Source: Owenia fusiformis (lineage: Eukaryota; Annelida; Polychaeta; Sabellida; Oweniidae). Taken from it: a stretch of 64,000 nt of DNA. The notes below the pieces were generated by a model, which saw only the letters and a program-made list of their open reading frames with translations, was not told the origin of the DNA and did not search any database. Below, in pieces: positions 28,601 through 64,000 of the stretch. The stretch lies in the NCBI GenBank assembly GCA_903813345.2, contig CAIIXF020000007.1, forward strand, positions 38,028,759 to 38,092,758. The letters run 5' to 3'. Position numbers and translations under genes: made by a program. Each line of letters starts with the position of its first letter. Within the stretch, counting starts at the first letter, position 1.

Positions 28601-31600
28601 TCAGCCTCAGCTTTTGTGTAAATGTCTGTCAAGAAATGATGTGAATTTGTCCACGCACAATATGATGGTTCAACCTACACAATATGAAGGTTCAACCTAC
28701 ACAATATGAAGGTTCAACCTACACAATATGAAGGTTCAACCTACACAATATGATGGTTCAACCTACACAATATGAAGGTTCAACCTACACAATATGAAGG
28801 TTCAACCTACACAATATGAAGGTTCAACCTACACAATATGATGGTTCAACCTACACAATATGATGGTTCAACCTACACAATATGAAGGTTCAACCTACAC
28901 AATATGATGGTTCAACCTACACAATATGAAGGTTCAACCTACACAATATGAGGGTTCAACCTACACAATATGAAGGTTCAACCTACACAATATGAAGGTT
29001 CAACCTACACAATATGAAGGTTCAACCTACACAATATGAAGGTTCAACCTACATGTCATTCATTTTCTGCAATGTTTTACATGCATATACTGTACTTGTG
29101 TTTTCCCCATATTATTCTTCAAGTAGTTTGTCCTAGTCATTTTAGAATTGCTCCAAAAAGGGATAAAGATGACGAAAGTGCCATAAGGTCAAGGAAGATT
29201 GGCATAAGGTCAAGGAAGATTAGCATAAGGTCAGGGAAGATTGGCATAAGGTCAAGGAAGATTAGCATAAGGTCAAAGAAGAATGGCATAAGGTCAGGGA
29301 AGATTAGCATAAGGTCAAGGAAGATTGGCATAAGGTCAAGGAAGATTGGCATAACATCAATGAAGATTTGGTTTTGCTATTTTGTATACTCAATTCTAAA
29401 ATTTTTTTCACTCAAGAAAAAATCAAAAATAACGATGTAGATTTGTGATTTTTCAAATTATACAGAATTTGGTTTGTTTCACTCAAATCATATTTGGAAA
29501 GTCCTAGCAGTCTGTAAAACTTTGAATTTGCCAGTTTTCGCACACCATTGTACTTCATGTTTGCACTTACTGCAACAAGATTACGGATTATATCTAAATA
29601 TTTCACTATCTCACACGATATACTGTTTCCAATTTTTACAAGATTACAATATCCCTATAGAACTTAAGTTGTATTCTTTAAAACACCGCAGGAAATTGAG
29701 AATGAAAGGCATAAATTTTGGTTAATTTGCGCTAAGCCTATCTATACTTAAATGCTAAATTAATGCTGATTGTGTACAATGTAATTTCCTCACCTAATGG
29801 ACCTACATGCTCAAAGTTGTATTCACATTATGATGCACAGAGGGTTCTCTTCTTGTATAGGGTTCACTTCTAGTACAGGGAACTTTTCTTGTATAGGTTT
29901 CTATTTTTGTATAGGATTCACTTCAAGTACAGGGAACTTTTCTAGTATAGGGTTCTCTTTTTGTATAGAGTTCACTTTAAGTACAGGGAACTTTTCTAGT
30001 ATAGGGTTCTCTTTTTGTATAGGGTTCACTTCAAGTACAGGGAACTTTTCTAGTATAGGGTTCTCTTCTTGTATAGGGTTCACTTCTAGTACAGGGAACT
30101 TTTCTAGTATAGGTTTCTATTTTTGTATAGGGTTCACTTCAAGTACAGGGAACTTTTCTAGTATAGGGTTCTCTTTTTGTATAGGGTTCACTTCAAGTAC
30201 AGGGAACTTTTCTAGTATAGGGTTCTCTTCTTGTATAGGGTTCACTTCTAGTACAGGGAACTTTTCTAGTATAGGGTTCTCTTTTTGTATAGGGTTCACT
30301 TTAAGTACAGGGAACTTTTCTAGTATAGGGTTCTCTTTTTTGTATAGGGTTCACTTCAAGTACAGGGAACTTTTCTAGTATAGGGTTCTCTTCTTGTATA
30401 GGGTTCACTTCTAGTACAGGGAACTTTTCTAGTACAAGGTTCTCTTCTAGTACAGGGTTTACTTCAAGTACAGGCTTTGCTTCTAGTACAGAATTCTAAT
30501 CTCGCATATTGTTTTCTTTGAGTACAGAGTTCTCTTCTAGTACTAGGTTCTCCATTGTTCTCAACCAGAACTGGATTCTATATTAGTACAGAGTTCTCTT
30601 CTAGTACATGGTTTTGCTTCTAGTACATGATTCTCTTAAAGTACTGGGTTCTTTTTTAGTGCAGGGTTTTATTCAAGTACTGGGTTCTCTTCCTGTACAT
30701 GGGTTGCTAGTCAAGTCTTCTCTTTTAGTACATGTCTATCTTAGGAGAAAAGATGGTGTTCTATGTCATGTTTCCAATCCCTGCATCTTCCAGGAAACGA
30801 CAAATCTATTTCCATATACAGTATACACATACATACATTACCATACTGCTTCATCATTTAGCTTTCATTCTTTAAGGAACAACTTTAACATGCATGATTA
30901 TCTCGTCTTATTGTCCCTGATGTATATTAAATCATGGTACGCATAATGCATATCTATATGAATTGTGGTTATGCTTAAACTGATAAGTAGATTTTTTATT
31001 TCAACTGGTACATTTGTACAATGCGCCTCATGTGGCACATTGTTTCAGTTGTAACCATGACGATTTCAAGTTCTAGCTGGGTGGAATATACATAATTGAG
31101 AATGAGGTGTATTTTAAATCTATATCATGTGAATGATGTGTCATTGTAGATACATGCTGAGAATGATGTGTCATTATGTACAAACACATATTGTGAATGA
31201 TGTGTCATTGTAGACACACAAATGATGTTTCTTTGTACTACAAGAATGATCTGTATAATAGACAAAACTGAGAATGATGTGTCATTCCAGACACAAACTG
31301 AGAATGATGTGTCCTTAATGACACATTCTTTGGTAAATATTTATGATATATAAAGTAAAGTAATTAATCCAAATATAAATGAAACCTGATATAGGTGACA
31401 GGTCATCTCAACCCAGTAAAACTCAACCCTTGTAAAACTCAACCCAAGTCAACTCTGGGGTTGAGTTTTACTGGGTTGAGTTGACTTAGGGTTGAGATGA
31501 TCAGGAAGCCCTGGTATTCATCTTAGTTTATTGACCCAAAATCTTAATATTTCAAAAAAATTTGGTGATTTTTTGTTGTAGAACATGGATGAATGGTCAT

Positions 31601-34600
31601 TTGACGTGTTCACTCTGAACGAGATAGGTGACAGCCACTCCCTCAAGTACGTAGGCTACGAACTGCTACAGATAAAATATATGATATTTGTTGTAGAACA
31701 TGGATGAATGGTCATTTGACGTGTTCACTCTGAACGAGATAGGCGACAGCCACTCCCTCAAGTACGTAGGCTACGAACTGCTACAGATAAAATATATGAT
31801 ATTTGTTGTAGAACATGGATGAATGGTCATTTGACGTGTTCACTCTGAACGAGATAGGTGACAGCCACTCCCTCAAGTACGTAGGCTATGAACTGCTGCA
31901 GAGGTTTGATCTCATAACAAAATACAAGGTAAGATAATTAACAATACTACACTTTAATGTGTGTGTGGTAGCCAATCAGATTGGCAGTATAGCTTTACAA
32001 TTAAGATAATTAACAATACTACACTTTAATGTGTGTGTGGTAGCCAATCAGATTGGCAGTATAGCTTTACAATTATCAATAAAAGCTGAAATAGAATTGT
32101 GGGTCTGGATTTAATCTTGTTTCGGCGTAATTTCTGAGGAAGTATGATCCGAAACTGATGTATTAAGCCTTTCTGACTGGTTGAAACTAAATGACCAGTT
32201 GAGTCTTTCTCACAAATTGAGTCTTTATGACTAGTTGAGTCCTTATGACTAGTTGAGTCTTTCTCACCAATTGAGTATTTATGACTAGTTGAATCTTTCT
32301 CACCAATTGAGTCATTGTGACTAGTTGAGTCTTTCTCATCAATTGAGTCTTTATGACTAGTCGAGTCTTTCTCACCAATTGAGTATTTATGACTAGTCGA
32401 GTCTTTCTCATCAATTGAGTCTGTCTGACCGATGGATCTTTCCTAGTCAATTGAATCTTTCTGATCAGAATTGAAAAATGTACTCGCTGTATATGTAGAG
32501 CTCCTTTAGAGGCAACCTACTCGGAGCAGTCATTTATTTAAGGAATAAATAATGATAGGCCATTCAATATGGTGAAATTCAGCACAAGTTGGACAGAATG
32601 TTGTACAAAGCACAAACCGAAGGTGAGTGCATTTGTACTGACATTCTGTCCAACGAGTGCTGAATTTCACCATATTGAATGGCCTATCATTATTTATTCC
32701 GATTCAAACATAAAAATTAGTAAAAGCCGTGTCTGTGGAACGGGCATGAAGGAAGAATACGCATGCTGTCAAGATTCTCGGTCGGAAAAATTTTAGAATT
32801 TGTTTGGGCTGTTCTATTTTACTCCCCGTTTTAGATTTTATACGAAATAAAAAAAATATAAACTGCAAACTTGAAGTCAGCCATAGTTATTAAATAGTTA
32901 CAGTAGTTACGGAGGGAGTAAAAAAGAACAGCTATACCCGGACAGAGCCCCAGATGTGCAGCTGAGATGTGACGTCACTCAAAACAATGCAAATTGCAGA
33001 TTGAATAAAGCATGGTCGTGCATCTATGGAGAATTAGAGAACGTTCTATATTGGCTATGCTGCATTCTGATTGGTTGGGAAATTCGAATAGAGCACGGTC
33101 ATGTTTGAATTAGATATACATGTACCTGTACTGTACCTGTAATATACCTGATATACATCTTCATTGTATATCATCAGTCCTCAACAGTCCTATGTCTGCA
33201 CAGGTCAGTCGTATCATTAGAATCAGGTTAATTAGTAGCATCAGTATAGGGTCCAATGATTTATTTCCATATTGTTTGTTATTGTCTTTAATGAGCCTGC
33301 CTTTAATCCCAGAGTTGGCTTTGTTTCAACATGAGGATGTGAGTGAGGAGAATTATACTCACCAGGAAAGACATATTATTTTGGTCATGCGAAGGCGGCA
33401 CTTTTGAAATTATTGTTTTATATGTTTATTTTGGTGAGAAACACTTTACATTTTTTGGTGTAGAAATGGACACAAACAAAACTGTTTTATTTCTAGTTTT
33501 TGCAAAGGGCATGATATATTTTACAGATAAAAATTGGCTAATTCAGCATACTTTGCTGGGAGGGAAAGGGGGTTAGAACAAGCTTAGCTAATACCACATA
33601 CACATAAAAGGACATACATGTTGAGGGTTCTGTTGTTATATGCAATGAATCTTTAAGTTTAGGGTTCTGTTGTTACATGAAATGAATCTTTAAGTTGGGG
33701 GTTTTGTTGTAATAGCCTATGTAATGGATCTTTAAGTTGAGGGTTCAGTTGTTACATGTAATAAATCTTTAAGTTTAGGGTTTTGTTGTTGCATGTAATG
33801 AATCTTTAAGTTGAGGGTTCCATTGTTACATATAATGAATCTTTTAGTTGAAGATTTTGTTGTTACATGTAATGAATCATTGAGTTGAGGGTTCCGTTGA
33901 AATATTTAATGAATCTTTAAGTTTAGGATTCTGTTGTTCCATGTAATGAATCTTTAAGTTTAGGGTTCTGTTGTAACATGTAATTATTCTTTAAGTCATC
34001 ACAACAGTGGTATACAAACATGTAAGATTCATAAAAGTTAATGTTATTATATTAATTGTACTTGTATTTCAGGTTTTCGATTTTTTTAACAGCCATTAAC
34101 TCTGTGATTGTCTGAATAATTTTTAGCGTCCCCCTCCCCCTGAAAACACTGAGAGAAAGATAAAGGTAACAACTGCACCACACAAAGCCATGCTCAAGTG
34201 CACCTGCTCTTGTGCCTGAAGCCTCTTACCACAGGTGGTTTAGCAATCCCATAATACCCTCTGCTCTTGCCTCACATTAATACAATCTGATTGGCTGATG
34301 TAGGTCACCAGTGCTAAATAGGTCTCTTGGGATTGAACCTCCTTTTATTGTATTGAAATTAAAGGTCTTAACACTTTGAGTTATGTTCTTGTACAAAAGA
34401 ATTATAGAAAATACATAATATGGCGTGTATCAGAATATATTATTCTCTTGTAAAAATGAAACTGCACCAAAATTTGCTAAATATTTGATGCACCCACGCT
34501 CTGACCAATGAAATCCTTGTTCAAAGAGGTATGGTAATGACGGTAACAGTCACAGAGCCAGCCATTTATTTTAAAATCATGATCATTACTTAACTGAAAC

Positions 34601-37600
34601 GTGACTCAAATTGCTAAGATCTGTTGTACATAAACGTGATGTATGTACATAAACGTGATGTATGTACATAAACGTGATATATGTACATAAACGTGATGTA
34701 TGTAACATTGTTTATTTTGTCAGGTTGGTTGATGCACTAATTGTATACATTTACATACACACACATGACAGCATTTAATGGTTGAAATTAAATATCATGC
34801 ATGGTTTCATTTGCCAATTAGATTCTTCCACATATAGAGTTAGGGTATTATCCATGCTTAAGCTCACTCTGTAGTCAGGGTGCATTCCAGTTCTGTACAA
34901 AATAGGGGTTTGTGACTAACCTGTTACAATTTTAACCTTGAGCATAAAAATGGGCATTTTTGGGTCTCTTTGAGACAGTATCCAGTTTTGGGTCTCAAGT
35001 TTTGAAACAATGGGTCCAAGTTTTCTTAGCTGAGACCAAAAATCGTCACTAAAGAGCCATTTTTTGAGATTTATTAAAAATTTGGCAGTCACTTAATTTG
35101 GCTGTCATTTAAATCTACCAAATTAAAACGGCCGTCAAATTAGAGCAACTTACAGTAGTTTAAGCATTGATACTACCCTTTGATTTATTGTCAGCATGAA
35201 CCCAGCAACTGTTGGGTCACATGATCATATTCAACCAATCATATCAATGAGATTCCCTCTTTGATGGTTAAATGCTGGTATATGTAGTGTATTCTCTATT
35301 GGGCCAACCTCTTTTGGGATAACAATGAACTGATTGTGACATCATAGAACAATCAACTGATCGCTTTCTCAACAACGAAACAGCATGTCATCATTCTGTC
35401 ATTTTGAGACCCCCGCCCCTCTTAACAAATTAATATACAAGCATTAAAGTAGACTAATACTATTTTTAACCTACATTAGAAGTAACATAGAAGATTGGTG
35501 ATCAATTTTATATTTTGGTCTAATATATACCTTTGAAGATGCCTAGGTCTTTTGAGAAAAAATCACAATTCAAATGACAATGGAATGAAAAATAAAAATA
35601 GGTGAAACAATCAAATATTGAAATCATCTTATGGTTAAGCCTAATATAAGTACTAATATTTAGTGACGGTGAAATCCATATAGCGATCTGAATAACTCAT
35701 GTGTGACGCAAACATATCCCATATTTTCACTCTGTCTGATATAGGATCTGATTACTCTCTGACGTCACTGTATCACATGTTTTAAAGTTCAAAACATAAT
35801 TTTCCGTTGAAAAACCATTCAAAACACCAAATACATGTATACAGTATGATATATTTATACGCTCACACATTCTTACAGTTAAGTCATATGCTGTACATAC
35901 AGTACATGTATTTAAAGGACCTTTGTTTATTTTTATTAAATATAATCAATAAAAAATTTATAAAGCATATTCAAATCCCTTAATCAATAAGTCATCGAGT
36001 AATGCCCTTCTGTTATACTATCGCATATAGAATATTCAATATTAAGCGTATCTTCCCCAAAGATTTGTTTGCGATGATCAATAGATTCTATTATTACAAA
36101 TATTGCTCGCAATAAATCTTCAAAAATGATTATTTTGGCAATCTTGAGGATTACAATCGAAATATGTCCAGGAATTTAACGCTTGAGTGTGAATGATATA
36201 TTTTTATATTTGTCCCATTTATGTCTGTAGTAATCAATTATTTGTTGAGATATATATGATCTTTAAATATTAAAGGCTGTGTGTATATAAAAATGATTTC
36301 GCCAGATTATACAACATTTCCTCTCCATTTTGTACATATGAGTTTTTGCTAGTAATAAATCATACGATCCATTTGATGGAAAGAAAATGAAAATTGCTAA
36401 GTAACTTGATCAATTGGGAGTGTTTTGAATATGGTTTCTTTTAGGATTTTTTGTTTGCCATATTCAATATTTAAAGCCTTTTTCCTAAAATATAAAAACT
36501 ATATAAAAATATAACACATAAAATGTGTATAACCGATCTAAATGTCATATAAAACATGTCACGTTCAGATACATTTTTACGACATCCAAGACCGCCAGGG
36601 AAAAATTAATGGATACACGTCCTTTCCTAAACTGATACATATTTTGTTCAGAATATACACAAAAAAATCTTTGTATTTTTTTCATATATACAAAAAATGA
36701 TAAACATAGTTCTGTCTTCTAACGCATAATCCCCTTCATAAGTTTGCATGGCAACTAAAAGTTTTTATTGGATAGAAAGTTTATCAAAGCCAAAATGGCC
36801 AAACATCAACCGGCTTAATTATATAAATTGCCAAACTTATGGAGGGGAGTGTATATATACAGTATAATTCACAGGCTTTACGCTTCCACATATTTTGCAA
36901 TGTATCGTTTTTTATTGTGATTTAGATGAAATTGTATTTTAGATTTTATCAGCAGTACTGGCATAGGATGTCCTATTTGTAGTTCCATATTGTATATGCT
37001 ATTGTACATATATTCAAAAATTTATTGTACAATGTTATTGTACATGTATGGTCATGTATACAGTGAGCACTGAAAATAGATTTAAAGCACTACTTGAGGT
37101 CAAAATTCTAATGGTATATAACTCGTTTTTACTGTAAATTGATATATACTTATAAATTTGGCATCTGGAAGTCATCTTTGGACATCTCAGCACAGACTGT
37201 TCATCTTGGGCAATTTAAAAATCAGCAACGTCATAAATTTCATAGATAAAGAACAAAAATAAAATTCAGGCGTAATTTGGAGATAAAAGTTTTGATTTAT
37301 TTATAACCCTACAATGATTATTTTTCTAGACAACAATTTGTTAACATCAATTATTTTGTATGAATTTCTTTAATTTATTTACCTCAGGCTGGGAGTAGTA
37401 AAACATTAGCTAGGAAATGGAAAATAAATAATTCATGGAGTACATTTGAATGAACAAGCAACTGTTCCATCAGAAAAACTACGAGGTGACACTGAAATTA
37501 ATGATTATAAAAACAGTGAACTCCCCAGCATTGAAGCAAATGGGCGCAGCACCCACCTGAAAATCCAATTACACACAATGGAAAATGAAAAAATCATGAA

Positions 37601-40600
37601 AAATGGGCATAATTTGACCAAATTTGGTTTGAATTGTAGAAATGAGAATTTTGCACCCACTTGAAAAATCCTGTAGAGATCACTGAAAAATAAAAAATTA
37701 TTCAGGGTCAAGTTCTTTTAAATCACCCTGTATATAAGAAATTTTCACTTTTCAGGTTAACACCCAGACGCTGGAGAACTTTTTGATTGCAGTACAAAAT
37801 GGCTACAGCAAGCATAAGAACCCGTATCATAACCTCATCCACGCGGCAGATGTCACGCAGACCACGTACCAGATATTGTCCAGTAGTGGCTTAGTGGTAA
37901 AATATTAATTTTTCTATATTCAGTTATAAATAAAATGTTAATTCATCTTAAATCCATTTTTCTGTTTTGTCGCCTTATAGACGTATGGGCATTTTATTTT
38001 TCAATAAAACCTTGTGATTGTATCTGTGTATAAGTGCACAAAAAGAACATAGCACCCCTCCAAGGAGGGATTTCTGGCTCTGTCTTTGAGTATAAACAAT
38101 TGTAAAAAACATGTAAAAAACAAAATATACCAAGAAGTATTGCTCGCTGATATATGGCGGTAATTACCTACCTACATAGGTTAATGAAGGACATAGAATG
38201 ATGAGTTACATGTAGAATAGAGGTTCACTTGAAAAGTATCAAACATACGTACCTGCCATCTTTCTAAATCAGAGAAAGTTCACATATGTTTTCAGTTAAA
38301 TCATTTGTAGCGTAATCTATGTCACCCCACATCACAAGAATATGCAATTTACACAATGATATATAGAGTACACTGAAATCTCAATAAAACACTTCTCAAT
38401 GTAAACACCTCTCAATATAAACACCTTAATGAAAACACATCTTAATGTAAACCTTAATTAATAAACATTTTTCATTGTAAGCATCTCTCAATGTAAACAC
38501 CTCTTAATATAACACTTCTCAATATAAGCACCTCTTAATGGAAACATTTCTTAGTGAAAACACCTCTCAATGTAAGCATTTCTCAATGTTAACACCTCTT
38601 AATGAAAACACCTCTTAATGTATACACCTTTTAATGTAAACACCACTTAATGTAAACACCTCTTAACAGAAATACTTCCTTAATGGAAACACTTCTTAAT
38701 GTAAACACCTCTCAATCTAAACATGACTTTGATTTTCCTCTCAATCTAAACACCTCTCAATGGAAAAACCTCTTAACAGAAACACTTCTTAATGTAGACA
38801 CATCTTAATGTAAACACTTCTCAATGTGAACATCTCTCAATGTGAACACCTCTTCACATGAACACCTCTCAATGTCAACCTCTATGTGAACATTGCAAGC
38901 TAGTGCCAGTGTTTGCTTTAGATGTGTTAACTCGTATATTTTACACCCCCAATCTGCAATATCATCCTGCAGCACTGTAAACAGTACTGAACAGTGCAGT
39001 TCGAGTACTGTGCTTTACAGCGATGTACAGTGTTATTCTAGCATCACCTGGTAGTACAGTACTGTTTTTACAGAGCTGTATGGCACTGTTTTTGAAAACA
39101 GTGATGTACAGTACTGCTTTTTTTCAGCGCTGTGCAGCACTGTTTCACGAACAGCGCTGTTTGATGCTGTTTGAGATTGGCAGTGTAATAGAACATTGTT
39201 TTATTTTACAGCACTGGTTAACAGATCTGGAGATATTTGCCACAATTATAGCAGCTTGTATACATGACTTTGAACATACTGGGACAACCAACAACTTTCA
39301 CATTATGACAGGGTGAGTTGAAAATATTTCGTCATCAGCCTCAATACTTGAGGGGAACACCTATCTAGGTTCATATTTACATGGAGATAGGTTATTCTTT
39401 GAATTCTGGGAGACTTCCTCCTGTTACATGGTTCCTCTATGAATCCTTGGAGAGTTCCTCCTGTTACATGGTTCCTCTATGAATTATGGGAGAGTTCCTC
39501 CTGTTACATGGTTCCTATATGAATCCTGGGAGAATTCCTCCTGTTACATGTTCCTCTATGAATTCTGGGAGAATTCCTCGTGTTACATGGTTCCTCTATG
39601 AATCCCGGGAGAATTCCCCCCCCCCTGACTTTAATGACTATAAATGACTATAAATTACCAAAAGTGTAAGTCTTTAACATTATAACAGATTGAAAATTAT
39701 GATTTGATATTCGTGGATGCAATTGAAAGTGAATTTCAAGCAAAATTGTTCAAAATGTGGATTCATATATGGATCTAATACCCTGACTTTAATGACTATA
39801 AATGACTTTAAATGACTATGAATTACCCAAAGTGTAAGTCTTTGACATATAACAGATTGGAAATTATGTTTTGATATTCTAGAATGCAATTGAAAGTGAA
39901 TTTCAAGAAAAATTGTTCAAAAAGTGGATTTATATATGGATCTAATACCATGTTCCTATGGTTACTGGTACAGCTGTAAGATCTATATATTTGTAAAAGT
40001 AAATAATTAAGTCATTTGGTATTTAAAACAATCAATTTGCAAATGCAGGTAGAATTAAAGGGGACTTAAATCAGGGGGGCTTATTTAATGTGGCCCCTTT
40101 CAGTTCTGATTTTACTCTCTTGTATATCTGATGTTGCTATGTTGGAGATCCGATGTTGCTATGTGAAATAAAACAATGCTGTGTTGCTATGTTGTAGGTC
40201 TGATGTTGCTATGTTGTATAACGACCGAGCTGTACTTGAAAATCATCACATAAGCGCTGCATTTAAACTCTTCAAGGACGATGAAACAAACATTTTATGT
40301 AATCTTAGTAAAGAGGAATACAGGTTCGGGGATTTCCATTTTGATTTTAAACCAATTAATTATATGTACTACTACTATTATTATAAATAATAGATTGGTT
40401 ATTTTTGTAGATGTTATGTACTTGTTATTGCACAGCCTAAATATTGAATTGAACCTAAGAGGAGGGAAAACCCCATGATTCAATTGATGACATACAATTT
40501 CCTCCTTCACGCACCTCCTGGAAGTACTTACCCTCCATCTTGGTTTTCAAAGTTTTCAAATTGACCTAGTTTTAAACCAATCAACGATCGACTTGCTTAA

Positions 40601-43600
40601 CCAATCAGCGACAATGTCTCAATACAGATTTACATTATAAGCGTATGTCATCTTTGAACCCTGGGGTTTCTCCCCCTCTTATTGAACATGATATGAAAAA
40701 AGTTCTTGTCACATGAAATGAAAATGTTTATTGTAAGAAATCAATGATGCAACATTCTGGGCATAATTATGTGGACAATTGCAAGTTAATGACTAGTCAT
40801 ACTGCAAAAATAGAATAAAATCAGAAAAATTCAGTGACATGTGTGATGACGTTTTTTAAGCAAAAGTTATTTTATTTTTGTTTGAGAAATATGAAGAATT
40901 CAATAATTATGTCTGTTTTTTTATATTTTAGGGAGTTCCGGTCTCTAGTTATAGATATGGTCCTTGCCACAGACATGTCTTTCCACTTTCAGCAAATTAA
41001 GAATATGAAAAACTTGCTCAGCGTGCCGGAAAAGTAAGTCAGGGTTATCAGAGTGAAATCATGGGGTTTAAATTTCAAATAAGGAGGCTCTTGAAAGCCC
41101 AATTGGTTAAAGACTGGTTGATCACTTTTTGTTATTGTTACTTGTTTAAGCAAAAAATTATTTTATTTTTGATTGTGAAATACAAAATTTCTTTGAAAAG
41201 CTTTTTCAGTATAAATGATTAATCGACTTGCATTTTTCACAAAAACTGCAAATACAGATTACCCTGCACTCATGCCTGTACTTTACATTGCGTCTTAATT
41301 TGTGAACTTTAGGTTTTTGACTAAGAGCAACAAGGAAACTTCTCCAAGAATCTTTCACCAAACTTTTTCATATTAATTGTATCGAAATGTGTGTAATGAC
41401 ATCCTTATCACTTTTAACAATTTGAACCTCACTTGTCAATCAAGCTACATATGTAGTAAAACAATGGAAAAGGTGGATAAAACACATACGTAATGACCTG
41501 TAAATTCTATTATTTTTCAGCATAGATAAATCAAAAGCATTATCCCTTGTGTTACATTGTGCCGACATCAGCCATCCCGCAAAAGATTGGAATATTCATT
41601 ACAAGTGGACAATGCACCTACTTGAGGAATTCTTTAGACAGGTATGACAAATATTCATTACAAGTGGGCAATGCACCTACTTGAGGAATTCTTTAGACAG
41701 GTATGACATATATTCATTACAAGTGGACAATGCACCTACTTGAGGAATTCTTTAGACAGGTATGACAAATATTCATTACAAGTGGGCAATGCACCTACTT
41801 GAGGAATTCTTTAGACAGGTATGACATATATTCCTTACAAGTGGACAATGCACCTACTTGAGAAATTCTTTAGACAGGTATGACATACAGGGTGTTCCAA
41901 AAGTAACAGGACTGGTGCTGGCATTTTGTCAATTTTGCACTGAATATCTTCAAATTTTCACAAATTGTACTTTGAAGTATTGCAACTTAAATTATAAAGT
42001 TTCAGAAAAAATAATGAAATGCGGTTTGAGTAATGGTTACTATAGTAACATGACATTCCAATACCCGGGGCTACTTTTTTCCTGAAAATGTGATATCTAA
42101 CATTTTTGTATTACTGAAGAAAGTATCTAATTCATCTATTATAATACAACATTTCTTGTTTATTTTATTATTTTCTTTGTTGTAAAGGTGTTGCTGTACA
42201 ACTCAGATTCAAGTATAATATCATAATGGTAATAACATTTATTCAATTTCCCGGAAAATCACTATGAATAACAGTCTGAACAATTCACGGTTGAGTTTTT
42301 GAAAAGACCCAATTTGAAGCCAGTCATCTACCTTGATAGTGTGCCTGCCCGCAGGTCGGCATTAAAGACCATGCAGCTATAGGAGAACTAGGTCTTGAGG
42401 TCTAAAACCATGCACCATACTCCCCTGATCATGCAATATCTAATTTTTACTTATATTGAGAACGGAATGCTAATCAGTGCTGTAAGACCTTTAAAGATGA
42501 GAATGACCTTCCCCAAATTGTCCAATCGACCCTGCGTGACATGCCCTCAAATGGGTTCACTCATGTGTTTGGGTCATGGATACAGAGTACTACTCTTGTA
42601 ATGACTGCAAAGAGGAGCCTATTTTCAAAATAGATGATACATAAGAACTTCAAATGATGTAAAACAAATGTCACTCCCACCAGTTGTTGCATTTCTACTT
42701 TGATATGGCATGTACAAAATGATATGGCATGTACAAAATGCTTAATGTCTCTTTAACTTTTTGCTTGGAATGTTGCCCCGGGTATAGTGATGTCATGTTA
42801 CTATAGCAACCATAACTCTACATGAGTTTCATATATTTTGTAGAAACTTTGCAGACTTAATAACAATGCATAAAAGTACATTATGTAAAATTTTAAAGAC
42901 GATTGGTGCATATTTAACAAAATGCCAGCACTTGCAGTCCTGTTACTTTTGGAACACCCTGTATATTCATTACAAGTGGACAATGCACCTACTTGAGAAA
43001 TTCTTTAGACAGGTATGACATATATTCCTTACAAGTGGACAATGCACCTACTTGAGAAATTCTTTAGACAGGTATGACATATATTCATTACAAGTGGACA
43101 ATGCACCTACTTGAGGAATTCTTTAGACAGGTATGACATATATTCATTACAAGTGGACAATGCACCTACTTGAGGAATTCTTTAGACAGGTATGACATAT
43201 ATTCATTACAGGTGGACAATGCACCTACTTGAGGAATTCTTTAGACAGGTATGACAAATTTGAAACAAACACCCCGTACTTTTTGATACCCACCCCCATT
43301 CGTCATCCCATTTTTGTTGCCACCTATACTTCAACAACTTACTTAATTCAAAGTTTTTTCTTCATCTACGATAACACAAAGATTGTATATTGATGCACAA
43401 AAGTAAAGTAAGAAAACGAGTGAATATTTATTTGACTACTGCCCCCTGTCCCCCCCCCTATTTGACTACTGCCCCCTGTCTCCCCCTATTTGACTACTGC
43501 CCCCTGTCCCCCCCTATTTGACTACTGCCCTCTGTCCCTCCCCCAATTTGACTACTACCCCCTGTCCCCCCTATTTGACTACTGCCCCATGTCCCCCCCC

Positions 43601-46600
43601 CCTATTTGACTACTGCCCCCTGTCTCCCTCCCCCTTATCACTGAGCTCATCTCCACTTGTACTTAGATAGTTAGTGAAAAAAGTTAAACTCATACATTCA
43701 GAGATGCATGATACTACCGTATCTTAATTGTGTATGTCACCATCCAGGGGTCACCACTAAAGCTAAGTTCACACCAACGGCGCTTTGATGACCCTTTAAA
43801 GTGGCATGCAAAGTGGCTTTGCACGGCGCTTAAAAGCGCTATCAAAGCACCATTGGCGTGAACTTAGCTTAAGAAGTGCATCAATGAATGAGAAGTGGAT
43901 TAGCTCTGAGGCTCTTTGTAGTTGGCATTTTGTGAATAGTGTTCATAACTATAAGGTGGTAACACCTTAAAAGACAAGAAGCATATCCTGAAATCTGTAA
44001 AATCTGTAGATTTTGAAAAATCTGTGAATTCTGAATTTGTTGTTTCCAGGGTGATAAGGAAAAGGAACTGGATCTCCCCTACTCCCCACTGTGTGACAGG
44101 GAAGGGACATTGGTGTCCCAGTCTCAAATAGGTATGTACATCGGTGTCCCAGTTTCAAATAGGTATGTACATCGGTGTCCCAGTCTCAAATAGATATGCA
44201 CATGTACATTGGTGTCCAAGTCTCAAATACAATGTAGGTATGTACATTGGTGTCCAAGTCTCAAATAGGTATGTACATCGGTGTCCCAGTCTCAAATAGA
44301 TATGCACATGTACATTGGTGTCCCAGTCTCAAATAGGTATGTACATCGGTGTCCCAGTCTCAAATAGATATGCACATGTACATTGGTGTCCAAGTCTCAA
44401 ATAGGTATGTACATCGGTGTCCCAGTCTCAAATAGGTATGTACATCGGTGTCCCAGTCTCAAATACATGTAGGTATGTACATCGGTGTTCTAGTCTCAAA
44501 TAGGTATGTACATCGGTGTCCCAGTCTCAAATAGGTATGTACATCAGTGTCCCAGTCTCAAATAGGTATGTACATTGGTGTCCAAGTCTCAAATAGGTAT
44601 GTACTTGTATCCATTAGCAATTACCAGAGTCAAGGAGGGTGGAGTGAGGAATTCATATTACCTTTTTTAGCCCAAACTCACAATTTAATTTAACATATAT
44701 TTCAAATTACAGTATTCTCACACTCGAATAGCCTGACAATGGTAAAGTCAGATACCGTTGTCATAATTTGGCGGACATAACCGTCCCTCCAATTAGATTT
44801 TAATGAACTGTAGATGTGGGTCAAATGTGTTGTAAAATCGAGGTGACAACGGTTATATTTGACAACGGTTTATGTAAAGGCAACGGTAAAGTGTCTTACC
44901 ATTGTCATTTTCCTATTTTCCAATGCAATACATCCACCATAGTCCATTGTCACATCTTACCACATGCCGTTGTCTTGGTAAATTATTTCAAATTCAGATT
45001 CCGTTGTCATTGACAATATTGAAGACGCTATAATGTGGCGATTCATGACCCCATTTGATAGAAATTGGGATTTCACACGAGCTTAACACATGCACAGAAT
45101 TAGGGACAATAAGGTTCCATGGAACAAGGACCAAGTGATTAAAGAGTTGAAGCGACGGTTATGTCCGCCATTTGTGACAACGATATCCGACATGACCGTT
45201 GTCAGGTTATTTCAGTGTCATTCTATGCATCATCAGAGAATGCGTTTAAGCTAAATTTCTATATACATAGCTTTTTACCATATTTTAGGATGCATTGATT
45301 GATTCACTTTATTGTTTGGCCAAGTTCCCATCTGAACATTTTTACGTATTTTAGGGTTCATTGACTTTATTGTTGAGCCAAGTTTCCAAGTGATGGGAGA
45401 TATGTTGGAGAAGATTTTGGGTCCGCTGCATCAGCAACATCTCAGGGACCAGTCTCTATTTAATTCCACTATTAAAGAGGAGGGAGGAAGAAGGAAGAGC
45501 TCCGGAGGGTCGTCAAGGTCATCAAAGTCACCTCTATCGCCAGGTAAGACATACATGTAACAAATGACTACAAGGCCAGGAGGGGGTGGTATTCAGTTTT
45601 ATGTTTTATTACATACCTACATTGAAGTAAATGGGAAAGCTAGGGGGCTATATTTAGCAGTTATGACCCTATCATTGAATATATGCCTGAGGTCTGTCAT
45701 CAATATAGCCCGAGCTTGCGAGTGCTATATTACAACAGTCCGAAGGCAAATATTCAATGATACGGACATAATTGTTGTAACATACCTTTATTTCCATGGC
45801 TACGTTATATCAATGACGTCACACGCCTGTTTGCGAGTGAAATTTGGACGAAGTGAAACATGATGTCATAAGATTGTCATGGTTAAAAAGTTTGGCGGCT
45901 ATACAGGAATATAAGCCGAGTTTCAGTTCCATTGACTTCCATACAAATGCTTCACTAGGTATGTAATACCCACTGATATTGCCCGATTACCCCGATATAG
46001 CCCAATTACCTCGTTTTGATATTAGATTTCTTTAATAACCGTGACAAGTTGTACTGGCACACAGATGTGTGATGTCATTGCCATGGAAATAAAGGTATCA
46101 TTAATACGTCAGTTATGTCACAATGACGTGAAATAAGCCTTCATTCTTGCTCAAATATAGAGCCTCCCAAGGTATATATTGGGAAAACACTGGCATATTT
46201 TTCACGTAATAGTGACACAACCTCTAAGTATCGTTAGAAATTGAATGAAGAATCCACTGTTTTCTTTCTTTATTTGCTGAAACTTTATCTGACCATGCAT
46301 GATCATTGCTTGACTGCACAGGATTTGATAAATTACATTTTTGTCACTGAATTGGGAATTCTACCAATTAAAGCATGGAGTCAACCTTGTTGCTTTCTAG
46401 CTAAATTAAAATTTCCAATACTAGTCCAACTTCGAATTCTTATGGTTCACTTAAGCTTGCGCTTATTCAACGAAAACTCCAGATCAGGAGTCAATGCACC
46501 AGATAAACGCAATTACCTTTATTTTACAATCAGAAACTTGTAACAAATTGTCCAAGCTGAAGATCAACTCATAGCAAAACTTTTCCACTTACACTGCCCA

Positions 46601-49600
46601 AAAAATCTTACTTTTAGTGTGATTGTTTTGGTGGACGATGGACAACACCTTCTGAAAAGTTTGTTTATGTTTTAGGTCTCACGTATGAGTTAAAGAGACA
46701 CTGGGCGGGATCTTTACAGAGCAACAAACAACAGTGGAAAGAGAGAGCACAGGAATGTAAGTCATCACAGCACAGTAAAACCTGTATATCTGAATACCTC
46801 TTAAAATGAAAACAAAGACTTCTAGTTAAAAAATTCAAGATGTGCACATCTGCTAATTTTAGCACTTTTGGCCTTTCCTCCTGCCCCAAAATTGGCGTTT
46901 ATAATAGAGCACATTGATATAATATAAATGACATGTTTCAGGCCCGTAGCCAGGATTTGCCAAGGGGGTGGTTCAGTTTTCAAAAATTTCCAGGGGGGTT
47001 CACATTTGACAATTTTGGCCTAAATATGGCTAAAATCACTTGAGAAGTGCTCAAAAAGGTGGAAAACTGCATGATTTTGAAAGAATTGTTGGCCAGGGGG
47101 GGGTTCGCCCAAACCCTGCGAACCCCCCCCCCCCTGGCTACAGGCCTGTGTTTTAAATGTTTTATTGTTGGTCCGAGTTAACTTAAGGGTCAGTCATATC
47201 AGATTATAATTTAGCCAGAATTTCTTGTGTATAAGACACTCTACTATACCTAACCCCTAGAAATGCATAAGATACTCTGTTTGTCTAATTGTATTGTTTA
47301 ATATATTTTTGACAGTACATTATCAACAACAGTCATTCGATAAACCATGAATAAGGAACAGTCAAATAAAATTAATAAGCCAAATGGGTTGCTATGAACA
47401 CCAAATGCAAGGTATAGCAGAGTGTAAGAGGCACTGATATGCCAACTTGCTCATGTACAACTGTGAATTTATTTTTCAAATATGCCAATAACTATAACAA
47501 CTATTTTTCAGTGGAAGGACATAAGTCTCCTAATGTAGCCACAACGGACACTAAAACCAACTCAGATAAACCAAACCATACACCAGATCACACTAAAACT
47601 GAGACAAATAGTAAACTTGAGATTTCCGATGAAAAAAAGACTTCACTTGATGAAAACAAGAAATTAGAGACTACACCAGAATTAGAGACTACACAAAAAT
47701 CAGAGACTAGTGCAGAATTAGAGACTAAAGACAGTAATGAGAATTCAAAACCTGATCTGACCCAACAAAGAACAATCATAGCAGATACTGGTGAGACCTA
47801 AGAGCCATCTATGTGAAGAGTATTGTACAACCAGTTTCCATTTGAGATATTTCCTGCCCCCCTCCATTTTCCTAGAATCAAATCATTACTTTAACGATAA
47901 CCTATGTATTCTAAGTTCCCCATCTCTCAATTTGTCATGCATACATACTGACATACGCAAAAGTGTTTAATTTATTTCTCGCTCAGCTCAGGAACATTAT
48001 TTCATTTCATTGACCCAGGGGATTTTTGCATTGAGCATTGTAAATAACATGTTAATTAATTAAAAATTCAAAACACTTTTTGTGGCCCGATGTCCAATGT
48101 TAAGTCCTGAACCAAAGCAGAGTCGCTTTAAGGTGGAGACTGGTATTTAACGTTCACTTTCATTATGACTCTGCATTGACATACTGTATTACCCTGTACT
48201 GTACTGTATTGACATGTAGTGTACTGCATTGACCTGTACTGTACTGCATTGACATGTATTGTACCGTTATTTATGATTGTGATAAAAATGCACAATTTCC
48301 TCAGGACTTTTTTTAGTCCATTTCACTATATGTTTCCATTACACGTGTTAGAGTATCTTGAACTTTTTGTATTATTTTGTCAAACATGTTCATACAGTGT
48401 CTGTCACAATTGTCACAAAGCTGTCACAGTTGTCACAAACCTGTCACAATTGCCAGGGTACCTCCCTGAGTTTCTCCCAATCTGTGTTTCCCCAAAATCC
48501 AATACATTTCACAAATACATTTGCAATTACCGTATTCTCTGTAATTAGCGCCCAGGGCGCTTAGAAAATTGAAAATACATCATTTAGACCATTCTAATTA
48601 GCGCCCATGTATGAAAAAATCAGAAATCCCGAGGAATTTCATGTATGGCATTTTTTCTTGTCAAGAATGCTCTTATTTTCAACATATTTTTAAAATAATG
48701 ATAAGTATTGTTATTGGAGAGAATACGGTAAAGATCGCTTAGACAATATTGACAGTCATTGAAGACCCGTTTATGCCTAATTTATTTCCGGCACGCCCCC
48801 TTTGTCATGACGCGAATTATATTCAATATTTTCACTAGAGACTGTTTGATATCGATCTAAAGTTATACCTTATTTTTTTAATTTGATGATAGATCATCAT
48901 TTTTTGTATAAATGTCGTGTAAAAGTCGAGAAATGTTAAAAATAAACAAGAAAGTTCACGACCTTTTGACATGCGCAGAACATCTGCGCAGAAGCTTTTG
49001 AAAATATCTGCCGATAAAATCTTTCAACTCGAACATCTCCTTCATTCATTATGGACTTTTTTGAGACAGTATTCGTTTAGTATGGTTTGGAAAGCATCCA
49101 GTGACAGATATTTATCGGGAGGATGCACCTAATCACAGCGTTATCACGTTTACAGCAGGTTAGTATAAGTACTCTATTATCGCCCACGGAAAATTCTTTG
49201 GAAATTAGATTTCTTCTGATATATTTGTCATTTCTTGGTCATTCCTCGATATTTCTTGAAGTTTGTGAAGCGGGATGGGCGCTTATTAGAGAGTGGGCGG
49301 TAATTACAGAGAATACGGTACTTTGAATTCAAAACTGTTACATGTATATGTATTTTATAAATGCATGGTATTTATATCTTACAAAAACTGTGGTATTTCA
49401 AGAATTGTTGTACTATTTCACATGCATAAGATATCTTAGACATATGTCTGACACCACATTTCACTTATGTATTATCTCTAAAACATGCCAAATGCAGGCC
49501 TGTCAACTTAGGGACAATAATCAGGTAAAATGCGTATTTGCGTGACATATTCTGTCACACAAAAAAAACTGGCGTGACTTCAAATTTTCCAGCAAATGCG

Positions 49601-60743: not shown

Positions 60744-63700
60744 GTAGCATAACTTATAGTGGCTTTCATGTCTTATATACATCATGACTTATAGCATTAC
60801 ATATAAAAGCTAACATGTTTTATGTCATGTGTAATATTATTACTTATAACAGCTAGCATAACTTATACACCGTGACGTATAGCATTACTAATAGCAGCTT
60901 CCATGTCTTATATTCATCATGACTTATAGCATTACATATAAAAGCTAACATGTTTTTATGTCATGTGTAATATCATTACTTATTACAGCTAGCATAACTT
61001 ATACATCGTGACTTATAGCAGCTTGCTTCAAGAAAGATGTCTTCGATTTTTTTACAAGGACTATGAGTCTGATTATGATACTCTTTTAGACAAATCAGGC
61101 CTGCCCACCTTAACTCTAGGTAGACAAAGGCAGATAGCAATAGAAACTTTTAAAATCATAAATAATCAGTCTCCTAGTTACCTTAACGACATGCTTCAGG
61201 AGCGTACATCTAGTTACAATTTACGTCACAAAAATACTCTAAATGTTCCATCTTTCAATACTGTAACACATGGCAGACACTCTTTTAGAGTTGATGCATG
61301 CTTTATATGGAACAATCTACCCAATGATCTCAGAAATTGTGTATCTCTTACAGAGTTCAAAAAACTAATTAAATCATGGAACGGTAAAAACTGCAAATGT
61401 GCAATATGTAAATGTAAAATGTAAACCTTTCAGATTCTCTGTGCCACTATGTAAATGTATTTTAGCATGACATATGATTTTTTTAGTATTATCTTGTTAA
61501 CACTGTTACATGTTTTAAAATTTTATTTTAAAGATTTCTATGTCTATATGTCGGTCAATAGCGCTTGCGCTAATGTTTATTGTACAAAAGTTATCCGACT
61601 TGAAATAAATATTAGAGAATTTTCGTTATAAGTTTTTTAAAAACGTATACGTATACTTATACTTATAAACCCAATAAACAAGGTGTTTCATAATTTCCTA
61701 ATTCGTCGGGAAATATTTCCTAGGACGGTAATAAAAAGGGCCAATGGCATACCATCCGTACCCCCTTGATGTAAAGCATTTTTAGTTGTGTCATATGTGT
61801 TTTCTAGAATCAAATAGGCTGATATAGCACACGGGTTTTACAGATTTATCTACTCTCAAATATATTTTTTGTAGATGATCGTTTTGAATCACCTTGTAGA
61901 AATAACGAAGGGAGAATTAGTTCAGCTAATGAATGAGTCGAGCTGTTTGATTGGATAGTATGCCTATTCAGCCGATTAATTTTAATAAGCCATTCTGGTC
62001 AGTAGGTCCACACATATGCTATGGGGAGATCCAACTCTGTAAGTTTATAATCTGCGTATAAAGGCCCTTTTATACGTAAAAACTTAAAAATTGACCTTAT
62101 AATTTCATGAGAACTTTGAAATGATCGACTCGTTCGTGTAGTGATTCACTTTAAAGGGTCTTGTTTATCGTACACTACAAGGACCCGTCAACTAGCGTTT
62201 AGTTTATCGTGTTCATAATTGACACTAGCACAGGACATTGTATTCGCAGTCCCTAGTTGATGATGGAGCTTGACTATATCGGGAATAGTTATGCCCCACT
62301 TGGTACAGATTATGAAAATCAATTTGAATTGATTTTAGTTCGACAAGACCCTTTAAACTATAAGTATACGTATAAGTTTTTGAAACAACTTATAACGAAA
62401 ATTCTCTATTGATATGATATGATATGATATGATATGATATAGCTCACGTCATATCATGTCTCATTTACTAAACGTCATGCCATTTATCATTGTTCGTAGC
62501 AGCTAGCACCTCTGATATATACACAGTATAATGATCACGATAGTCTCGTAGCCTTTAACCTGACAATCATAGAAAAAACATTGACAAACATTTAAATCAG
62601 CAAAAACTGGTACATATCACTAAATGTCAGTTCTTATCTGCTATGTTATGCTTGAGTATAATATGTGTACCTTCCCAGTTTATCTGGGATATTTTATAAT
62701 ACAAATTGATAAAAGAGTTTGATTTGTTGCAGATGCACCTACCTCGACAGCAGATGCGACAACTGAATCAAAAACGAAAGATGTTACAAGTGAATCTAGT
62801 ACAACAGGTATGACAACTGAATATGTTACTGAAGGTGTGACAACTGTATTTTCTACTGAAGATGTTACAACTAAATCTGTTACTGAAGAGGTGACAACTG
62901 AGTCTATTACTGAAGATGTGACAACTGAATCTGTTACTGATAATGTGACGACTGAATCTGTTACTAACGATGTGACGACTGAATCTGTTACTAACGATGT
63001 GACAATTGAATCTGTTACTCAAAGTGTGACAACTAAATATCTTACTGAAAATGTGACAACTAAATCTGTTACTGAAGATATTACATCTGAATCCGTTACT
63101 GATTTAACAACTGAATATGTAACTGAAGATTCAACAACTGAAACTGCTACTAAAGATGTTACGACTGCATCTATAACTGATGTTACAACTGAATCTGCTA
63201 CTGACGATGCAACAACTGAAACTGCTACTAAAACTATCACGACTGAATCTATTACTGATGTTACAACTGAATATATAACTGAAAATGTTACAACTGAATC
63301 TGCTACTGACGATGCAACAACTGAAACTGCTACTAAAACTATCACGACTGAATCTATTACTGATGTTACAACTGAATATATAACTGAAAATGTTACAACT
63401 GAATCTATTACTGATGTTACAACTGAATCTGGAACTGAAGATGCAACAACTGAATCTGTTACTGATTTAACAACTGAATCTGTAACTGAAGATGCACCAA
63501 CTGAAACTGCTACTAAAGATGTTACAACCGAATCTATTACTGATGTTACAACTGAATCTGTTACTGAAGATGCAACAGCTGAAACTGCTACTAAAGATGT
63601 TACAACTGAATCTATTACTGATGTTACAACTGAATCTGGAACTGAAGATGTTACAACTGAATTTGTTACTGATGTTACAACTGAATCTGTAACTGAAGAT

Positions 63701-64000
63701 GTTACAACTGAATATATTACTGATGTTACAACTGAATTTGGAACTGAAGATGTTACAACTGAATCTGTTACTGATGTTACAACGAATCTGTAACTGAAGA
63801 TGTTACAACTGAATATATTACTGATGTCACATCTGAATCTATTACTGATGTTACAACTGAATCTGTAACTGAAAATGTGACAACTGAAACTGCTACAAAT
63901 GATTTTTCAACTGAAGATGTTACAACTGAATCTGTTACTGATGTTACAACTGAATCTGTAACGGAAGATGTTACAACTGAAACTGCTGCTAAAAAGATTA
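60570..64000 (+). CDS. Chitin-binding (peritrophin-A) protein with Thr-rich repeat, partial
   Basis: Probably secreted and extracellular, binding chitin through one type-2 chitin-binding domain (CBM14) and carrying a mucin-like Thr/Ser/Glu repeat likely to be O-glycosylated (family knowledge and inference). Two exons are visible: 60570-60743 and 62733 to the window end, both phase 1 at the junction. The 5' end with the signal peptide is not seen and may be in the gap, and the 3' end lies beyond the window. A one-base loss at 63783/63784 breaks the frame. The final product could be a peritrophic-matrix, mucus or shell/cuticle protein; the sequence does not decide. Confidence 0.82.
61024..61610 (+). 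mobile_element. 5'-truncated LINE (CR1/Jockey-like), 3' end
   Basis: A frame to 61424 encodes LQERCLRFFYKDYESDYDTL, FKIINNQSPSYLNDML and FIWNNLPNDLRNCVSLTEFK, the C-terminal part of a non-LTR retrotransposon reverse-transcriptase polyprotein (class-typical SPSYL and W-x-LP motifs). It ends with a Cys-rich tail (CKCAICKC) and a 3' UTR closing at AATAAA 61604. The reverse-transcriptase core is missing, so it is a dead 5'-truncated copy. Confidence 0.85.
61613..62408. mobile_element. MITE of about 796 bp
   Basis: Terminal inverted repeats of about 50 bp: TAGAGAATTTTCGTTATAAG at the left, its complement at the right, and ACGTATACTTATA further in. An inner pair AAAGGGTCTTGT / ACAAGACCCTTT lies near 62150 and 62343. 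It abuts the LINE end directly. Confidence 0.85.
62733..64000 (+). CDS. Gene 2 exon with Thr-rich tandem repeat, runs off the window
   Basis: Acceptor GATTTGTTGCAG, phase 1 in. After DAPTSTADATTESKTKDVTS the frame becomes TTESVTEDV-type repeats (8-9 residues, 24-27 nt) with variants TETATK, TESITD and TEYVTE. The frame is intact to 63783, where ACAACTGAA reads ACAACGAA; the shifted frame stops at TAA 63791-63793. From there the same repeat continues in another frame to the window end. Confidence 0.85.

Follow-up and report, generated by a model that had tools for sequence, protein, structure and literature searches.

Minisatellites that span splice junctions were found in a phosphodiesterase gene of the annelid Owenia fusiformis and in other genes of its genome, and they probably arose by tandem duplication over existing junctions, in the manner of the "mirages" of amphioxus, with the exon-proximal site presumably the one used. 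The window, which is the whole analyzed stretch of 64,000 nucleotides (positions 38,028,759 to 38,092,758 of contig CAIIXF020000007.1, assembly GCA_903813345.2), contains a PDE1 (calcium/calmodulin phosphodiesterase) gene on its forward strand, identified through tblastn with a human PDE1A protein sequence. Fourteen exons were mapped by tblastn match (X1 to X14, 7442-47801), with the first coding exon or exons lying unmapped upstream, and when joined they form a single open frame closed by a stop. The initial annotation had counted fifteen exons, and its numbering works only when X5 (39 bp, in frame, 34127-34165) is left out. When the exon map was combined with Tandem Repeats Finder (TRF), 3 of the 27 splice borders of this gene were found inside tandem arrays, one at an acceptor (X4) and two at donors (X10 and X11), which confirms the main claim of that annotation, namely that splice borders of the gene lie inside tandem repeats.

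The array over the X4 acceptor (31572-31902, 115 bp x 2.9, TRF score 641) overlaps the intact copy of the exon (31812-31928), which was located, as were X10 and X11, by tblastn and the joined open frame. Each of its three copies carries an AG acceptor, as had been claimed for what was then numbered exon 5. Both decoys (the extra copies of the splice site) are intact, the last copy adjoins the intact exon, and the frame is kept by the last of the three acceptors. The copies contain 91 of the 117 exon bases and have no donor at the position corresponding to that of the real exon. Past X4, the initial annotation did not mention a 72 bp x 2 repeat (31930-32075, TRF) that begins at intron base 2, and the second copy of this repeat is without GT.

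The donor array of X10 (41521-41641) consists of ten copies of a 59-bp unit, in agreement with the ten donors reported for exon 10, and is divided into two blocks of five by an inserted inverted-repeat element. The first half (41592-41887, 59 bp x 5, TRF score 550) includes the frame-keeping donor followed by four decoys with GT, and the second half (42962-43256, five further copies, TRF score 562) has GT in 5/5 copies. The element between them (41888-42961, 1,074 bp, no strand assigned) has TA flanks and terminal inverted repeats that are perfect over 30 bp and then 73% identical over 163 bp. At least 40 near full-length places, including the one in X10, were found at 87-100% identity (40 of 762 first-look candidates were scored), and the element has no open frame of at least 100 aa among those listed. 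Similarly, the donor of X11 (44050-44131) lies in an array (44107-44604, 31 bp x 15, TRF score 598) where 11 of the 14 decoy donors keep GT, consistent with the many donors noted at exon 11. Reading of the copies indicated that both X10 and X11 repeat donors only, without an acceptor. The reading frame is preserved by the exon-proximal site, which is the first of the donors or the last of the acceptors, and the description of one intact border next to the intact exon was upheld.

The remaining two exons named earlier were supported in part. X8 (40198-40323, exon 8 of the initial annotation) is directly preceded by three additional copies of its start, which are intronic and run into the exon (40129-40216, by match count); the copy at 40129 is exact over 16 bp, and those at 40151 and 40179 have 3 mismatches. 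Six matches occur in the window versus 1.5 expected, a number reached in 1 of 100 shuffles. The extra copies are present, but the splice site is hardly multiplied because only one of them, by eye, carries AG. Upstream of X7 (39212-39312), which had been listed as a possible case, CAGCACTGT-like copies are repeated (8 matches in the window versus 1.7 expected, six of them inside 39053-39220), but there is no TRF array.

Outside PDE1, border arrays were found at 23 of 474 borders of 237 other exons, sampled from 74 gene segments of the myosin, PDE, and kinesin families. They occur in 19 of the 74 segments and in all three families, and about one in ten sampled exons (23/237) has a multiplied splice site. 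The number of similar consecutive sites per affected exon ranges from two to nineteen. One kinesin array (L123) repeats 127 exon bases in 17 additional copies. Acceptors were affected 16 times and donors seven times, a bias that is suggestive only (P 0.09). In one kinesin gene, all three sampled exons (L169, L170, and L171) were affected. The initial annotation had described a pattern clustered in one gene; the 3/27 borders of PDE1 are within the rate of the sampled genes (P 0.14), and clustering by gene was not supported among the 74 segments (P 0.18). Its suggestion of a local tendency to short tandem duplication stands insofar as duplication with an intact site fits the arrays, but the 23/474 borders elsewhere mean that the tendency is not local to this gene.

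The sample comprised 132 of 147 myosin and PDE matches, leaving out 4 in the window gene and 11 in a tandem run of myosin exons, and 105 of 144 kinesin matches. The 39 kinesin matches left out were 17 further copies of one array, 14 rows at the bottom of the ranking (E values of 5.6e-7 or weaker), and 8 rows with two to ten internal stops, a few retained rows also having two stops; the choice was made by eye from the match list before the DNA was inspected. Two TRF-straddled borders were dropped after reading, one with a weak repeat (L019, 17 bp x 2.2) and one that had been miscalled (L147), and a border at which the array begins exactly (L152) was left uncounted. Eight array-bearing exons (L053, L011, L012, L016, L051, L008, L097, and L114) had their borders adjusted manually on the basis of the reading frame, and the other exons kept their borders as called.

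Across the genome, splice borders were roughly four-fold enriched in such arrays, as judged by random-genome and shifted controls. The proposed genome scan of splice-border repeats against other positions, carried out here on the 237-exon sample, thus yielded an excess, but not when the introns of the window gene served as the null. A seed null, defined as the sum of unit lengths per base in 88 kb of random genome, gave 5.1 expected versus the 23/474 observed (bootstrap 2.4-8.6; P ~5e-6; units <=260 bp), on a small background of 30 arrays in stretches of random genome rather than matched introns. With units <=500 bp, the expectation was 8.5 (3.8-14.5; P 0.003), and it was 14.1 for random genome and window together (P 0.02). 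The first 20 random stretches were drawn without C3, C6, and C8, and the next 19 include them, with lengths guessed. A plain coverage null, which predicts 7.9/27 for PDE1, was set aside since it counts an n-copy array n times and over-counts, and the seed null was used instead, with shifted pseudo-borders serving as a separate check. Automatic, uncurated calls placed 8/264 (including the weak L019) and 11/210 real borders in arrays, compared with 18/1814 and 2/999 pseudo-borders shifted 120-500 bp into the intron, which overlap in the arrays they see and are not independent. GC content was rejected as the cause: the sampled exons have 42% GC, but repeats in the random stretches (34.1% GC) hardly differ from unique sequence there (34.8%), and the excess is therefore not accounted for by GC-rich seeds. 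Additionally, the repeat units tend to center on the junction: their exon share averages 0.54 (sd 0.20), a spread tighter than a uniform distribution would give (P 0.02).

If minisatellites are abundant, borders might merely be hit in proportion, with nothing special about them, and the window gene itself fits such an account. PDE1 alone has 3/27 real borders in arrays versus 15/239 shifted ones, which is no excess, while 29% of its intron positions lie inside arrays; when its introns are taken as the null, 19.8/474 borders are expected (25.0 with units <=500 bp) and the excess disappears. The lack of an excess in PDE1 is attributed to the location of the gene in a repeat-rich region. In contrast, random genome, the flanks of sampled exons, and pseudo-borders all gave about 1% or less per position, compared with 4-5% at borders, and 18/474 borders remained against the 5.1 expected after removal of five arrays with more than 60 exon bases, which are possible attractors of profile matches. 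Proportional hits are on this evidence an unlikely explanation, though the most serious of those considered.

A role in lowering or tuning expression, also raised in the initial annotation, would have the decoys divert part of the transcripts to unproductive splicing. Use of the nearest decoy would cause a frameshift in 17/26 arrays and a stop in 5/26, and would leave the frame open in 4/26, so the earlier claim that extra sites mostly give stops or frameshifts holds for 22/26 arrays. AG or GT is kept in 123 of 128 decoys, counted in 27 array blocks with X10 as two. However, the corresponding figure for nearby dinucleotides is 118 (P 0.105; P 0.04 toward conservation when X11 is removed post hoc), and selection on the 128 decoys, whether purging or keeping them, was not supported. 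An earlier count (119/124 intact, about 85% expected) was replaced, as its context extended outside the arrays and was unfair. A pattern search for GTAAGT pairs returned nothing useful on repeated splice sites. Unit lengths are multiples of three in 9/26 arrays, as by chance and with no frame preference, and the presence of arrays in all three sampled families also speaks against tuning, which appears very improbable. Duplicated alternative exons, mutually exclusive or cassette, are less credible still: the exon bases repeated at X4 and in kinesin L123 would suit them, but the X4 copies have no donor, the X10 and X11 copies have no acceptor, and inclusion of a neighboring copy would shift the frame in all three PDE1 arrays. 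The least probable explanation is an assembly artefact, against which stand the differences among copies within arrays, the interruption of the X10 array by a mobile element with TA flanks, and the 23 further cases in other genes.

The arrays are best read as tolerated by-products of tandem duplication over junctions. In the proposed origin, a segment spanning an existing junction is duplicated in tandem. The repeat units do contain both an exon edge and an intron edge, an intact junction remains beside the exon, and most extra copies carry AG or GT. The extra copies would be intronic and silent because the exon-proximal site, i.e., the first donor or the last acceptor, is presumably the one used, a choice that would be expected if a short conserved exon is recognized as a unit. 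Junctions may also be favored places for the birth or survival of duplications. Tentatively, and with somewhat less than even confidence, tandem duplications in this lineage could arise preferentially at junctions, leaving about one exon in ten with a multiplied splice site. On this reading, the roughly four-fold excess and the junction-centered units would point beyond repeat abundance alone, to some mechanism at junctions that is linked to splicing, transcription, or chromatin.

The initial annotation knew of no description of such a pattern, but the amphioxus mirages are repeats of this kind; they are placed in Adh3, the globins BflGb6 and BflGb9, and troponin C, with similar repeats in PGBD5 (PMC3087553, PMC3902484). 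Mirages are minisatellite-like repeats of 10-160 bp that span an exon-intron boundary at either exon end, RT-PCR suggested regular splicing despite their presence, and it was suggested that introns may be gained through them (PMC3087553). The Owenia units likewise span the boundary (X4, X10, X11, and the 23/474 further borders), both exon ends are affected, and many copies carry AG or GT. They differ in their annelid host, a group to which three matches to the annelid linker-globin family (PF16915) and a GC content of 34% also point, and in a frequency measured over 237 exons against background; a cephalochordate host is no part of what defines a mirage. Among titles and abstract openings of the open-licence literature, no report of mirages outside amphioxus was found, and an earthworm metallothionein paper, in its available part, discusses intronic minisatellites but none over borders (PMC12783039). 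Human genes in segmental duplications also have minisatellites over splice borders, with units of about 30 bp on average, whose variation alters gene structure and can make new introns in recent paralogues (PMC2812944), whereas the Owenia coding frame is kept with existing introns. In the Rogers model, an intron is gained when an exon segment bearing AGGT is duplicated in tandem (PMC4974935). Short tandem duplication multiplies splice signals there as it does here, but that model places a new intron within an exon, while the PDE1 units span existing borders and need no new intron; intron gain of this type was rejected, as the PDE1 frame is kept with existing introns.

These results probably extend mirages, known from amphioxus genes, to another animal group with a measured frequency. 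Splicing is usually held to be sensitive to nearby competing sites, and the arrays, whose frames mostly demand the exon-proximal site, offer a naturally occurring test of spliceosome choice among sites that are nearly equal. Gene prediction software could likewise be led astray by border arrays. Should the junction excess be upheld, it would show that tandem duplication does not act independently of gene structure, and it would provide a tangible origin for new introns and shifted intron positions. If junctions are indeed preferred birthplaces of such duplications, the genome would carry a reserve of additional splice sites on which intron gain and intron sliding could draw.

A gene for calcium/calmodulin-dependent phosphodiesterase (PDE1) was located on the + strand by tblastn with a human PDE1A protein query, and the matches join into a single open frame across 14 exons, from X1 (7442-7555) to X14 (47512-47801), with further 5' coding exons outside the map. 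Exon X5 (34127-34165, + strand; 13 residues, RPPPPENTERKIK) has no counterpart in the human PDE1A used as query. The reading frame remains intact with X5 in or out, and the exon may be alternatively used.

Tandem Repeats Finder (TRF) returned 120 rows for the window, where repeats covered 26% of the sequence and 30% of the PDE1 introns. Three of the 27 PDE1 borders were found inside arrays, namely the acceptor of X4 (31812-31928) and the donors of X10 (41521-41641) and X11 (44050-44131), which bears out the claim of the initial annotation that splice sites of this gene are multiplied by tandem arrays. Its further candidates were sustained only as repeats: extra copies of the exon start were present at X8, and weaker copies upstream of X7, but neither border is among the three. 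Position 2 of the intron 3' of X4 is the starting point of a 72 bp x 2 repeat, and the same intron contains an inverted repeat (32542-32700; 60-bp arms, 97% complementary, 39 bp spacer) that is perhaps a small mobile element. Elsewhere in the window, a 356-residue open frame with threonine-rich, DVTTESVTE-like repeats (62723-63793) overlies an array of a 27-bp unit in about 44 copies, and another open frame (60993-61424) resembles, by eye, the C-terminus of a reverse transcriptase from a non-LTR retrotransposon.

The ten donors previously counted at X10 belong to one array, divided into two five-copy blocks by a 1,074 bp element (41888-42961). This element has TA flanks and inverted ends of about 195 bp, composed of a 30 bp perfect inverted repeat (flanking bases included) followed by 163 bp at 73%. 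At least 40 near full-length places, itself counted, were found in the genome at 87-100% identity (40 scored of 762 first-look candidates), and no frame of at least 100 residues was among the open frames listed for it. Together, these features indicate an element, probably non-autonomous, that landed inside a pre-existing array; its putative superfamily is Tc1/mariner-like, with a TA target.

The genome searched comprised 498 Mb in 525 contigs (GC 34%), with C1-C12 measuring 31.9-62.2 Mb each and about 477 Mb together. It gave three matches above cut-off to the linker-globin family PF16915 (best E 5e-7), which we assume to be annelid-specific. The published Owenia fusiformis assembly amounts to 505.8 Mb with 12 scaffolds at chromosome scale (PMC9977687), with which the genome searched is compatible. 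GC content and the number of chromosomes argue against amphioxus.

Exons of the myosin head, PDE, and kinesin families were sampled blind to repeats, with borders assigned from a simple splice score together with the open frame (132 of 147 myosin head and PDE matches and 105 of 144 kinesin matches used). A TRF array spanned the border in 12 of 264 and 13 of 210 cases, respectively, and inspection of each left 11 (L017, L070, L053, L051, L011, L066, L008, L012, L037, L049, and L016) and 12 (L153, L169, L154, L149, L170, L129, L151, L123, L097, L117, L171, and L114) as genuine. Extra AG or GT copies (decoys) numbered 18 at the myosin acceptor L070, 11 at the PDE donor L037, and 17, all with AG, at the kinesin acceptor L123. 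The L051 array (oriented 2283-2418), at a myosin donor, includes just four exon bases; its 34-bp unit opens with GT and closes with AG, which makes the array look like a string of tiny introns. At the L123 locus (C2:23266100-23270035), 18 profile matches, all to one piece of a kinesin exon, recur every 159 bp, and the donor was absent from the one neighboring copy inspected. In a single kinesin gene (C8:26499926-26543609), all three sampled exons (L169, L170, and L171) carry a border array. Twelve consecutive matches to one myosin head exon (C9:37986009-37994334; profile positions 18-84) may represent alternative exons in a gene for muscle myosin, and pairs of PDE exon matches with identical profile positions, about 290-600 bp apart (C1:15897156-15899602 and C5:8035371-8035943), are possibly duplicated whole exons.

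Since every array begins as one unit, the chance of a border falling in a seed was taken as the total unit length divided by the sequence length. Against 23 observed among 474 borders, a random genomic background (39 stretches, 88 kb, 30 arrays, 9% coverage) predicted 5.1 for units up to 260 bp (bootstrap 2.4-8.6; P ~5e-6) and 8.5 for units up to 500 bp (3.8-14.5; P 0.003), and the sequences flanking the myosin and PDE exons in the sample predicted 3.8. Adding the window to the random background raised the expectation to 10.7 (P 7e-4), and extending the unit limit to 500 bp took it to 14.1 (P 0.02). The excess disappeared when the PDE1 introns, three to four times richer in repeats, served as the null (19.8 expected). 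The initial annotation had proposed comparing splice sites with shuffled positions. With an identical, uncurated pipeline on pseudo-borders moved into the intron, whose positions are mutually non-independent, an excess was observed in the sampled exons of myosin and PDE (8/264 real, including the weak L019, versus 18/1814 shifted; P 0.006) and of kinesin (11/210 versus 2/999, a control kept low by short flanks), but not in the window gene (3/27 versus 15/239). A border excess of about four-fold is therefore likely genome-wide, and is absent as a property of the PDE1 gene alone. Border arrays were spread over 19 of 74 gene segments without clustering by gene above chance (P 0.18), and the 3/27 of PDE1 is consistent with the sample rate (P 0.14); clustering in this one gene, as first described, is not supported.

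Nor is the phenomenon, of which the initial annotation knew no description, new in kind. Tandem repeats across exon-intron boundaries, named mirages, are described for the amphioxus Adh3 and globin genes, where splicing is apparently undisturbed and the mechanism is termed unclear (PMC3087553). They are also reported from troponin C and, in imperfect form, from PGBD5 (PMC3902484), and boundary repeats are known from human duplicated genes (PMC2812944). Titles and abstract openings in a literature search yielded no measured frequency of border repeats, no border excess, and no mirages, by that name, outside amphioxus.

An intact AG or GT was retained in 123 of 128 decoys, compared to 118 among nearby random dinucleotides (P 0.105). 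Decoys are neither being lost nor clearly retained; strong harm would predict a loss, which was not seen. Use of the nearest decoy would cause a frameshift in 17 of 26 arrays and a stop in five, in agreement with the earlier expectation for extra sites, and would leave the frame open in four. Hence, in most arrays the frame demands the exon-proximal site, which is the first of the donors or the last of the acceptors. Both would follow if the short exon were recognized as one unit.
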